Shown here: in pieces, positions 38,542 to 58,289 of the stretch
Layout of the letters: every line of letters begins with the position of its first letter
Numbering within the stretch: position 1 is the stretch's first letter
Origin: Streptomyces caniferus
Lineage (GTDB): Bacteria > Actinomycetota > Actinomycetes > Streptomycetales > Streptomycetaceae
NCBI RefSeq assembly: GCF_009811555.1
Contig: NZ_BLIN01000003.1
Location: 1,488,001-1,552,000 of the forward strand
Reading direction: 5' to 3'
Length of the DNA: 64,000 bases
Program-made: the position numbers and the translations under genes
The notes under the pieces: generated by a model
Database searches by the model: none
The model's input: only the letters and a program-made list of their open reading frames with translations
Told to the model about the DNA's origin: nothing

Positions 38542-41445
38542 TCAGGCCACGGGCGGTGCGAGCGGCGCCCCGGTGACGGCGGCCAGGGCCGCGGGGGTGG
38601 GGTGACGGTAGAGGTCGCGCATGCTCACCGTGCCGAAGCCCTGCCGGCGCAGAGCCTCCAGCAGCCGTACGGCCAGCAGCGAGTTGCCGCCGGCGGTGAA
38701 GAAGTGGTCGTCCGGGCCGAGGTCGGCGGCTAGCACCGAACGCCATACGGCGAGCATCGCCGCGGCCGGGTCCGTGCCGTCGACGGGCCTGCCCTGCCCC
38801 CCGCCGGGCGGTGCGGTCAGCGGTCGCCGCGTGGCCGGCAGGGCCGCCCGGTCCAGCTTTCCGTTGAGCGTCAGCGGCAGCACGGCCAGCGCGACGAACT
38901 CCGCGGGAACCATGTAGTCGGGCAGGATCGCGGCGCTCCTGCGGCGGACGTCGGCGGTCGCCGTGCCCTCCGCGAGCACGGTGTAGGCCACCAGACGGGC
39001 ATGCGCGGGGCCGGCCTCCTGCCCCTCGACGACCACCGCGGCGTCCACCACGCCCGGGTCGCCGACCAGCACCGAGCGCACTTCGCCCAGTTCGATGCGG
39101 AAGCCGCGGATCTTGACCTGTTCGTCGAGCCGGCCCACGTGGTCCAGCGCCCCGTCGAGCCGGAGCCGCCCGAGGTCGCCGCTGCGGTAGAGCCGCTCGC
39201 CGCTGAACCGGTCGTCGGCGAACCGCTCCGCGGTGAGCTCGGGCCGGTTGAGGTAGCGCAGGGCCAGGCCCGCGCCGCCCACCCAGATCTCGCCCACGGC
39301 GCCGGGCGGCAGCGGCCGTCCCCGGTCGTCGCGGACCGACACCGACCAGCCGGGGAGCGGCCGGCCGACGCAGCGGGGCCGCTCGTGCCCGTCCCATGAG
39401 CGCACGTCCCGCGCGGTGACGTGCACGGTCGTCTCGGTGATCCCGTACATGTTGACCAGCCGGCACGCGCTGTCGGGGTGCCTGCTGAACCAGGTGCCGA
39501 CCATGTGGGGATCGAAGGCCTCGCCGCCGAAGACGATCAGCCGGGGGGCGGGGGCGGCGGCCGTCCGGGCGTCCATCTCGAGGAACCCGGCGAAGGCGGA
39601 CGGCGTCTGGCTGAGCACCGTGACGCCCTCACGGAGCACCAGGGCATGGAAGTCCTCGGGGGTCCGGGTCACCAGGTGGGGCACGACGACGAGGCGGCCG
39701 CCGGTGAGCAGGCAGCCCCAGATCTCCCAGACCGAGAAGTCGAAGGCGGCGGAGTGGAAGAACGTCCAGACATCGCCGGTGCCCAGGTCCAGGTCGTGGG
39801 CGGTCGCGTCGAGCAGCGCCAGGACGTTGCGGTGGGCGACCACCACTCCCTTGGGGCGGCCGGTCGTTCCCGAGGTGTAGATGACGTACGCCGGGTCGTC
39901 GGGACCGGCGGAGGGCAGGGCGGTGCCGGCGGACTCCGGGGCGGCCGCGGTGAGTGCGGCGGGACGGAGGACACCGGTGCCCTCGGCGGCCGGGAAGCCG
40001 GAGAGGGTGGTGACGACGAGGGCCAGTCCGGCGTCCTCGGCGATATGGCGCAGCCGTTCGTCGGGGGCCTGCGGGTCGAGCGGGACGTACGCGGCGCCGG
40101 TCTTGAGGACCGCGAGGAGCGCCACCACGAGGTCGGTGGTGCGCTTGAGGCAGACGCCCACGAACCGCCCGGGTCCGGCGCCGCGGTCCACGAGCACCCG
40201 GGCCCAGTCCGCGGCGCGGGCGTCGAGCTCCCGGTAGGTCAGCCGCCGGGTGGCGTCGCAGACCGCGAGGGCGTCGGGCTGTTCGCGGGCGAAGCGTGCC
40301 ACGGCGTCGTGGAGGGTGGCGGCGCCGGGCGGGCCGGTTCGGGTGGTCCGTCCGAGGGCGAGGACGGCGTCCGCTTCGGGGCCGTCCAGCAGGGCGAGGT
40401 CGCCGACGGTGCGGCCGGGGGCGGCGTCGGCGAGCTGTGCGGCGAGGTGCCGGGTGTGCCGGGCGAAATCGCGGGCCACGACGGGGTGGACCGCAGCCGG
40501 GTCGTGGGTGTGCCCGGCGGCGAGCACCGCGCCCTCGTCGCCGTGCCAGGTCAGGGTGAGAGGGACGGCTTGGGGCGCGAGCGGGACGTACTCCGCGTCC
40601 GGGGTGTGGCCGGTGAGCACGAGGCATACGGGCGGGAGGGCGTCCGCGCTCTCCTCGGCCGGGGACCGCAGGGCCGTCCGGACCTGTGCCACGAGCGTGC
40701 TCAGCGGCTGTTCGTCCCCGGCGTCGACCGGGATCACCTTCGCGCCGGGTGCCCGGCCGGCCGGTTCGGTGACGATCACGGCGAGGCGCACGGTGGCGCT
40801 GCGCTCGTACCGGGACAGGGCCACTGCCGCGGCGGCCACGGCCACCTCGGGGGCGAACTCGGCCTTGTCCGCCGGATGTTCGGGCTCCACAAGCTCCGGG
40901 GGCTCCTGGATCTCCGGGAATGCGTCCTCGACGAGACCCCAGGACGGGGCGGGTGCGGGGGGCCGGCCGGCCGCGCCACGGGCGGTGCGCTCGCGCAGCG
41001 CCGTGACGAGCGCGGACACGTCGCGGTCCGGCGCGGTCAGGCCGTGGAGGAGTGCGCGCAGCCCGGCGTGGTCGAGGACCCCGCGACGGGCCACCACGAC
41101 GAGATCGGCGACGCCGTCGGGATAGCAGGTGAGCACGGTGCGCAGACCGGGGTCGGCGTCGTGCAGCGGGCGGCGCACCTCGCGCTGCCGCATCCGGTCG
41201 GCCCGCCGTGCGGTGGACGGGATCTCGGCGTGCTGCAGCCAGAAGCTGCCGGTCCGCCGCGCCGCGGCGGAGGCGGCCGCCCGCTCGGTGTTGGTCCGGG
41301 CGGCTCGGATGCGTGCCGGGTCGGTGAGCCGCAGCACGATGCCGTGTGCGGCACCGTCACCGAGGGCGGCCGGGCCCCCCGTACGGGGGCGGGGCTGATC
41401 AGTCATGCTCTCCATCCGCATCGGACGTCTCCCGGAGTGGCTCAT
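38542..41445 (-). CDS. NRPS: degenerate C domain - A (Thr predicted) - PCP
   Basis: 967 residues. Residues about 30-365 align with a condensation domain in layout (RRPLHDADPG... then the HHxxxDG position) but that motif reads RRGVLDH (120-126): both catalytic His are lost, and the domain is about 100 residues short. A domain about 375-865: YTSGTTGRPKG, YGITET, GRLDEQVKIRGFRIE. Reading the specificity residues by hand gives D-F-W-S-V-G-M-V-H-K, the known threonine-type code. PCP about 890-955 with FFTAGGNSLL, Ser near 922. ATG 41445 overlaps the SDR stop (ATGA). Predicted to load Thr for modification or donation in trans; no TE. Confidence 0.88.
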   Translation of the reverse strand: MSHSGRRPMRMESMTDQPRPRTGGPAALGDGAAHGIVLRLTDPARIRAARTNTERAAASAAARRTGSFWLQHAEIPSTARRADRMRQREVRRPLHDADPGLRTVLTCYPDGVADLVVVARRGVLDHAGLRALLHGLTAPDRDVSALVTALRERTARGAAGRPPAPAPSWGLVEDAFPEIQEPPELVEPEHPADKAEFAPEVAVAAAAVALSRYERSATVRLAVIVTEPAGRAPGAKVIPVDAGDEQPLSTLVAQVRTALRSPAEESADALPPVCLVLTGHTPDAEYVPLAPQAVPLTLTWHGDEGAVLAAGHTHDPAAVHPVVARDFARHTRHLAAQLADAAPGRTVGDLALLDGPEADAVLALGRTTRTGPPGAATLHDAVARFAREQPDALAVCDATRRLTYRELDARAADWARVLVDRGAGPGRFVGVCLKRTTDLVVALLAVLKTGAAYVPLDPQAPDERLRHIAEDAGLALVVTTLSGFPAAEGTGVLRPAALTAAAPESAGTALPSAGPDDPAYVIYTSGTTGRPKGVVVAHRNVLALLDATAHDLDLGTGDVWTFFHSAAFDFSVWEIWGCLLTGGRLVVVPHLVTRTPEDFHALVLREGVTVLSQTPSAFAGFLEMDARTAAAPAPRLIVFGGEAFDPHMVGTWFSRHPDSACRLVNMYGITETTVHVTARDVRSWDGHERPRCVGRPLPGWSVSVRDDRGRPLPPGAVGEIWVGGAGLALRYLNRPELTAERFADDRFSGERLYRSGDLGRLRLDGALDHVGRLDEQVKIRGFRIELGEVRSVLVGDPGVVDAAVVVEGQEAGPAHARLVAYTVLAEGTATADVRRRSAAILPDYMVPAEFVALAVLPLTLNGKLDRAALPATRRPLTAPPGGGQGRPVDGTDPAAAMLAVWRSVLAADLGPDDHFFTAGGNSLLAVRLLEALRRQGFGTVSMRDLYRHPTPAALAAVTGAPLAPPVA

Positions 41446-58289: not shown

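Follow-up and report, generated by a model that had tools for sequence, protein, structure and literature searches.

The question raised by this locus is how a compact nonribosomal peptide synthetase (NRPS) assembly line can be started when its first carrier (T) domain has no adenylation (A) domain. The line is encoded by an 11-gene block of the Streptomyces caniferus genome (9.1 Mb), on the minus strand from position 58289 to 38542 of the 64-kb stretch of DNA that was analysed (the window), whose 2-kb stretches have 66-76% GC. Pfam and NCBIfam searches identified the block as an NRPS cluster with tailoring, export and regulation genes; the NRPS proteins, the ATP-grasp enzyme, the asparaginyl-tRNA synthetase (AsnRS)-like protein, the BBE-type oxidase, the short-chain dehydrogenase/reductase (SDR), the type II thioesterase (TE), the exporter and the regulator were all found where a preliminary description of this DNA had located them, and on the same strand. 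The comparisons with other genomes support a single co-inherited NRPS cluster, which is real, conserved and, as far as the literature was searched, undescribed. We give about even credence to an overall model in which its product would be a short, modified nonribosomal peptide, namely a tripeptide, with trans-loading of its first residue. The basis of this model was computed (gene content, domain order, conservation, gene fusion and co-occurrence), and from it we infer the chemical steps and the product. In the order of transcription, with C denoting a condensation domain, the genes are the following:

56928..58289, minus strand: cluster regulator with an N-terminal helix-turn-helix (HTH_31) and an AAA_16-like region under the AAA_16 cut-off (Pfam)
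55431..56720, minus strand: predicted exporter of the major facilitator superfamily (MFS; Pfam MFS_3/MFS_1)
53654..55339, minus strand: T-C (peptidyl carrier-condensation) protein without an A domain (PP-binding 4.8e-10, Condensation 5.8e-44)
52362..53651, minus strand: ATP-grasp ligase of the L-amino-acid-ligase type (ATP-grasp_4 and BacD model, both below cut-off; BacD in the PDB)
49711..52143, minus strand: half-C remnant-A-T (Pfam A 3.3e-77; hhalign; code read by eye)
45645..49670, minus strand: C-A-T-TE (Pfam, C domain 2e-93; code read by eye)
44237..45652, minus strand: BBE-type FAD oxidase (FAD_binding_4 8.8e-33, BBE 8.9e-11)
43153..44211, minus strand: AsnRS-like class II core, 352 aa (tRNA-synt_2 1.5e-29)
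42257..43021, minus strand: type II TE (PF00975 1.2e-38; ATG at 43021 located by reading the upstream sequence)
41442..42266, minus strand: SDR, proposed Thr beta-carbon epimerising dehydrogenase (adh_short_C2 1.2e-58)
38542..41406, minus strand: degenerate C-A(Thr)-T (Pfam 7.1e-88; start uncertain, at 41406, 41421 or 41445)

The cluster contains three A domains and two full C domains, the same count that had been given before, and in addition C-domain remnants were found on both A-T proteins. The T-C protein has intact GGDSL and HHAILDG motifs. Profile-profile comparison (hhalign) showed that the N-terminal 375 residues of the 38542-41406 protein correspond to a shortened C domain (98.6%, E 9e-16, 323 columns, 57 sequences) from which the HHxxxDG motif is missing, and that the N-terminus of the 49711-52143 protein corresponds to the C-terminal half of a C domain only (95.1%, four sequences only). 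The domain count fits a line of the form T-C / A-T / C-A-T-TE with the first T domain loaded externally; the mismatch between A and C domains would thus be due to trans-loading and split modules and not to absent parts.

Substrate codes were extracted by eye from the translated A domains. The code of the 38542-41406 protein is DFWSVGMVHK, that of Thr, and its D, W, M, V and H were invariant in 51 aligned A(Thr)-T sequences (the window protein and 50 of 120 listed relatives); in the available part of PMC12283262 this code stands under Thr/Dhb-activating domains. The code of the 49711-52143 protein, DALWLGATFK, is Val-like (8 of 10 positions equal to the Val code DALWIGGTFK). The third code, DVWQLHVDDK in the 45645-49670 protein, agrees at 7 of 10 positions with DVWQMIGDDK, which the same portion of PMC12283262 lists among the codes for 2,4-diaminobutyrate (Dab), for beta-OH-Dab, and therefore the third residue is probably a diamino acid of the Dab or 2,3-diaminopropionate (Dap) type. 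Since three SbnA-type and two EctB-type genes above cut-off are present in the genome, none of them within the cluster, the host can probably make Dab and possibly Dap. These data support the earlier proposal of a short modified peptide with Thr made by one NRPS cluster.

How would Thr reach a carrier with no A domain? According to the available part of PMC9943842, the pairs GlobD/GlobE, HmtG/HmtF and WS21/WS22 (an SDR and an A-T protein for Thr) are proposed to make carrier-bound L-allo-Thr, which a type II TE would carry to A-less modules in himastatin and WS9326A. Movement of Thr between carriers by a type II TE has been biochemically shown for legonmycin, as stated in the portion of PMC8748450 consulted. 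The window holds every part of such a system: an A-T protein with the Thr code, an adjoining SDR, a type II TE and an A-less acceptor T domain. By this analogy, half of the cluster is a cassette already proposed in print for L-allo-Thr, and because of it the earlier statement that the cluster matches no known pathway was too strong; the part of that statement that stands is that no characterised cluster with the whole gene set was found in the literature searched. None of the 120 homologues listed for the SDR, nor of the 120 listed for the A(Thr)-T protein, was named GlobD/HmtG/WS21 or LgnA.

Assembly may then proceed as follows. The A domain of the 38542-41406 protein would put L-Thr onto its own T domain, where the SDR would oxidise and then re-reduce the beta-carbon to give L-allo-Thr, and the type II TE would shuttle this residue onto the carrier domain of T-C, the protein without an A domain. 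Because the 49711-52143 protein, which would hold Val, has a truncated C domain, the C domain of T-C would join allo-Thr to that Val. The 45645-49670 protein would append the Dab/Dap-type residue and its TE would release the chain. The ATP-grasp and AsnRS-like enzymes probably add further bonds to the peptide: the former, tied to T-C, would cap the N-terminus of the first residue with an amide, and the latter might adenylate a carboxylate of the Asn/Asp type and form a further amide without tRNA. The BBE-type protein may oxidise one residue.

Evidence that the locus is inherited as one unit came from its relatives (genomes and loci are designated here by our own G and L numbers). In the close relative G294, tblastn found all 11 genes in identical order, at 81-93% identity and with the flanks conserved on both sides. 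G894 and G921, which belong to the same family as S. caniferus and to a different genus in the grouping used, have the ten non-regulatory genes and a regulator at 46-83% identity in a rearranged form, with two oppositely oriented gene groups that converge in G894 and diverge in G921. The C-A-T-TE architecture was confirmed by Pfam in G894 and by a match covering residues 1-1323 in G921. Relatives of the regulator were found in G294 (88%), G894 (50%), G921 (46%) and G140 (36%), and those of the MFS exporter in G294 (89%), G894 (77%) and G921 (68%); the BBE gene has relatives in the clusters of G294, G080, G894 and G921, and the SDR gene, which adjoins A(Thr)-T in the window, has them also in G294, G894 and G921. 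Among the matches listed, relatives of the ATP-grasp, SDR and A(Thr)-T proteins were apparently co-located in Streptomyces sp. NPDC048442 and NPDC046261, in Actinocrispum wychmicini and on one JGI contig. Because both halves co-occur in the rearranged loci of G894 and G921, these data support a single cluster, and the possibility of two unrelated clusters lying side by side was rejected.

Two further genomes show the same line in other arrangements. G080 shares the SDR, TE, AsnRS-like, BBE, C-A-T-TE and A(Thr)-T proteins at 43-68% identity, and neither a T-C protein nor an ATP-grasp gene was found in its 40 kb. Its NRPS is one T-C-A-T-C-A-T-TE protein with the A-less T domain first (Pfam, scanned as two pieces), preceded by a free C domain and by an A-MT-T protein. 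In G024, a T-C protein accompanies a 1913-aa A-T-C-A-T-TE protein, so that the later steps are on a single protein. Because G080 has upstream C and A-MT-T proteins and is without ATP-grasp, we read the ATP-grasp enzyme of the window as one that would form the N-terminal amide where an upstream C domain is absent, replacing the C domain of the G080 type.

The ATP-grasp gene is tightly linked to T-C: its ATG lies two bases past the T-C stop codon, and in G894 the two are fused as one open frame of 968 aa. Because the Pfam ATP-grasp_4 match fell just under its cut-off (26.4 bits against 27.0), assignment to this superfamily leans on the BacD model (75 bits, against an equivalog cut-off of 850) and on the BacD structures in the PDB (E 5e-20). 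Residues E291, N293 and R295 (numbered in the 433-aa frame), which we take to be the catalytic residues of ATP-grasp enzymes, showed no variation across an alignment of 58 sequences, made up of the window protein and a selection of 57 from the 120 relatives listed. Relatives of the enzyme (E <= 1e-60) were found in 21 of 392 genomes, T-C adjoining in 11 of them and G375 carrying fragments of both genes. A family-wide search found it in five of 239 genomes, and the new ones (G894, G921 and G844) all had the T-C pair. The nine best matches to T-C (43-100% identity) all adjoin an ATP-grasp gene. When 20-40 kb was fetched around each of 14 T-C/ATP-grasp clusters, every stretch was found to contain a stand-alone A protein, and 13 of them a type II TE (12 by profile, that of G294 by tblastn).

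That T-C and ATP-grasp are adjacent, and in one case fused, would also be expected if the ATP-grasp enzyme itself charged or extended the orphan T domain of T-C, through an acyl phosphate that becomes a thioester, with the TE acting only in proofreading and Thr entering elsewhere or after release. We consider this unlikely, given the stand-alone A protein and the type II TE that recur in the T-C/ATP-grasp clusters, and given that G080 has the Thr, SDR and TE set together with an A-less T domain in a locus in which no ATP-grasp was found.

Several observations weigh against the overall model. The pairing is not universal, nine of the 21 genomes with ATP-grasp having no T-C inside about 7.5 kb, and T-C-like matches occurred in 73 of 392 genomes, the majority of them within long NRPS frames and not as stand-alone proteins. 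No type II TE was found in the stretch fetched from G844, and that of G140 is about 20 kb distant from its T-C. The NRPS cluster of G573 has an AsnRS-like gene, and no relative of BBE, type II TE or SDR was found in it. The Val and Dab/Dap assignments derive from similarity of the codes only, at 8 and 7 of 10 positions, and the roles of the BBE-type and AsnRS-like proteins are ones that we only infer.

Reading by eye around other ATP-grasp relatives gave additional observations. The T-C/ATP-grasp pair occurs with genes for a large PKS-like protein, a small carrier, an FkbH-like and a KS III-like protein at L106-L109 (G265, G308). At L110 and L111 (G191, G038), ATP-grasp relatives lie beside genes for C and A domains and MEP-pathway-like genes. 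The T-C/ATP-grasp 40 kb of G140 contains SbnA-like, SbnB-like and glutamate-mutase-like genes (L093, 12197-17078); the same stretch also encodes an AsnRS-like protein of a second type, which in the alignment has the residue pattern of an asparagine synthetase.

The most novel element of the cluster is the subfamily to which the AsnRS-like protein belongs. It is a class II core that matched only PF00152 and PF01409, with motifs 2 and 3 intact and no anticodon-binding domain. We found 25 members, of which 22 were aligned (G023, G296 and G337 were omitted; numbering is that of 1x54, counted from the PDB alignment). We take E228, Q363, the motif 2 Arg and R364 of AsnRS to have roles in the active site, and Asp at the E228 position to define asparagine synthetases. 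The motif 2 Arg and the Arg at the R364 position were kept in all 22 rows. The E228 position has Glu in 22 of 22 rows and the Q363 position has Glu in 21 of 22, G014 having Gln. The three AsnRS aligned from the PDB all have Glu at the first position, whereas at the second two have Gln and one has Met; the archaeal asparagine synthetase 3p8t has Asp and Glu, respectively, and Asp at the E228 position was also found in 1n9w (the single aspartyl-tRNA synthetase, AspRS, in the printed alignments) and in the second-type protein of G140. This mixture of residues fits neither AsnRS nor asparagine synthetase.

The preliminary description had proposed three amide-forming chemistries in the cluster. A third ligase is plausible because the class II motifs of the AsnRS-like protein are intact, but a role of the asparagine-synthetase type is about as likely. 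An enzyme of that type would activate an Asp-like side chain, join ammonia to it and so supply or amidate a building block, being no peptide ligase; we place its probability somewhat short of even. Among NCBIfam models the AsnRS-like protein scores best with those of PRK06462, 'asparagine synthetase A' (204 bits, the cut-off of 322 not being reached), it shares Glu at the Q363 position with 3p8t in 21 of 22 rows, and G140 pairs an AsnRS-like relative with glutamate-mutase-like genes (by eye). The Glu at the E228 position in all 22 rows, where 3p8t, 1n9w and the G140 protein have Asp, argues against it, as does the finding (by eye) that the cluster's three A codes include none for Asn or Asp, the codes used for this comparison being those we assume for these residues.

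The subfamily was found in 20 of the 392 genomes, all Streptomyces, and in four of 394 genomes across the class (that of the window counted); when genome contigs were scanned with the window's protein, a single relative came up, in Lapidilactobacillus (28%). Its members occur in NRPS clusters (window, G294, G894, G921, G080 and G573), in small clusters with tRNA-editing-domain-like and ATP-grasp-like proteins (G030, G157 and G678; checked by Pfam for G030 and by eye for the rest, G030 and G157 also having MFS and aminotransferase genes), and as a sister group in clusters with differing aminoacyl-tRNA synthetase (aaRS) genes. We tentatively suggest, with clearly less confidence than in the trans-loading model, that these proteins may form a separate AsnRS-core class making tRNA-free amides in peptide antibiotics of at least three kinds of actinobacterial pathway, namely NRPS clusters, small ATP-grasp/tRNA-editing-domain clusters and clusters with an aaRS and an S66 peptidase, here beside an NRPS initiated by T-C/ATP-grasp.

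The sister subfamily is 46-52% identical to the AsnRS-like protein of the window and was found at loci L030-L041 (G323, G074, G321, G111, G155, G276, G147, G018, G059, G335, G066 and G014). Its clusters hold ATP-grasp ligases and an S66 peptidase (by Pfam in G147, by eye in the others). The aaRS genes vary from cluster to cluster. When 10 proteins from 10 clusters were scored against NCBIfam, five exceeded their cut-offs (GlyRS in G074, AlaRS in G155, LeuRS in G323, PheS in G147 and ThrRS in G014) and five fell below them (PheT in G066, an AspRS/AsnRS-like protein in G335, a HisRS-like one in G111 and ProRS-like ones in G059 and G321). LeuRS was a second copy in one (G323) of six genomes examined for it, and PheS in two (G147 and G066) of six. 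No aaRS was seen by eye near the G018 locus, and the G276 locus has transposase-like neighbours. The sister clusters may encode a family of antibiotics that act on aaRSs, together with the corresponding resistance genes; by analogy with AcmF, some of their aaRS-like proteins could instead be biosynthetic.

The aaRS genes of the sister clusters, with second copies for LeuRS and PheS, could suggest that the AsnRS-like protein of the window is itself a self-resistance copy of a drug target. We rejected this as very improbable: the protein has no anticodon-binding domain, and no full AsnRS that it could protect was seen in the genome, because the other two PF00152 matches are an AspRS (587 aa, NCBIfam 811 bits, cut-off 443) and a frame of 1108 aa, assigned to LysX by its length only.

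As for the limits of the cluster, the following flanking genes were excluded from it:

35561-37639: GGT
37543-38517: SIR2
59442-60362: sugar-isomerase-like
60456-61520: lipoate-ligase-like

A relative of the sugar-isomerase-like gene sits within the G894 locus. No ketosynthase (KS) or acyltransferase (AT) domain was found by Pfam in the 11 proteins, in agreement with the earlier statement that the cluster has no polyketide synthase (PKS); the SDR matched the ketoreductase (KR) model as a member of the same superfamily. The reported lack of an MbtH-like protein was borne out as well, the five matches in the genome (one with two internal stops) all being outside the cluster. The SDR scored 287.7 bits with the mycofactocin-coupled model TIGR03971 (cut-off 300, not reached) and the BBE-type protein 192 bits with the BagK/FevA1 model (cut-off 800, also not reached).

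The literature search, which covered neither MIBiG nor most subscription journals, yielded no characterised cluster with these genes. The available parts of PMC2922099 (aaRS-like proteins of class I that act in peptide synthesis), PMC7539972 (trans A domains) and PMC10445470 (azaserine) contain nothing on such a combination. That the product is a compound already described in a source outside this coverage, which close homologues in named species, for example Streptomyces angustmyceticus and S. decoyicus, might suggest, seems to us improbable, since the search yielded no paper with such a gene set (judged mainly from search listings). For a compact assembly line, the cluster suggests an order of steps that can be tested, and it shows that a first carrier without an A domain is recurrently accompanied by an ATP-grasp enzyme, by a free-standing A protein and, in most cases, by a type II TE. 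A second point of interest is a family of AsnRS-derived enzymes in peptide biosynthesis that has been little studied, and in the sister clusters the aaRS encoded nearby may indicate what an unknown antibiotic acts on.

Among known systems, the L-allo-Thr cassettes of globomycin (GlobC/D/E), himastatin (HmtF/G) and WS9326A (WS20/21/22), as presented in the part of PMC9943842 available, resemble the window in having A(Thr)-T, SDR and type II TE and, for himastatin and WS9326A, in delivery to a module without an A domain, a likeness of gene content and not of directly compared sequences. In those systems the acceptor is inside longer assembly lines, whereas in the window it is a separate T-C protein beside ATP-grasp, and the BBE and AsnRS-like genes are extra. 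In legonmycin, LgnA/LgnB/LgnD also deliver Thr to an A-less T domain by means of an A(Thr)-T protein and a type II TE, but in the accessible portion of PMC8748450 no SDR is named, Thr is acylated by a C1 domain that precedes the A-less T, and Pro comes next, instead of the Val and Dab/Dap proposed here. Scleric acid biosynthesis (SclG/SclN) likewise combines an NRPS cluster with an ATP-grasp enzyme whose proposed role is to attach a terminal acyl group, according to the available part of PMC6335953; it differs in having a single module and in the chemistry of glycolic acid and benzoate. The alanine-anticapsin ligase BacD is the nearest solved ATP-grasp relative by sequence, whereas the window enzyme is far under the BacD equivalog cut-off and is coupled to an NRPS. 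AcmF (AlaRS-like, ascamycin) and SbzA (IleRS-like, SB-203208) are aaRS-derived enzymes that were recruited to natural-product pathways for the attachment of an amino acid, but they are kin to other synthetases and are treated as aminoacyl-tRNA-dependent in the available part of the review PMC12945691, in which 'AsnRS' and 'asparaginyl' do not occur and no AsnRS-like enzyme is named. Finally, the archaeal asparagine synthetase 3p8t (294 aa) and the AsnRS 1x54 share the AsnRS-type class II core with the AsnRS-like protein, and 3p8t is likewise short; the window protein is unlike both in combining in its active site a Glu of the AsnRS type with a Glu of the asparagine-synthetase type.

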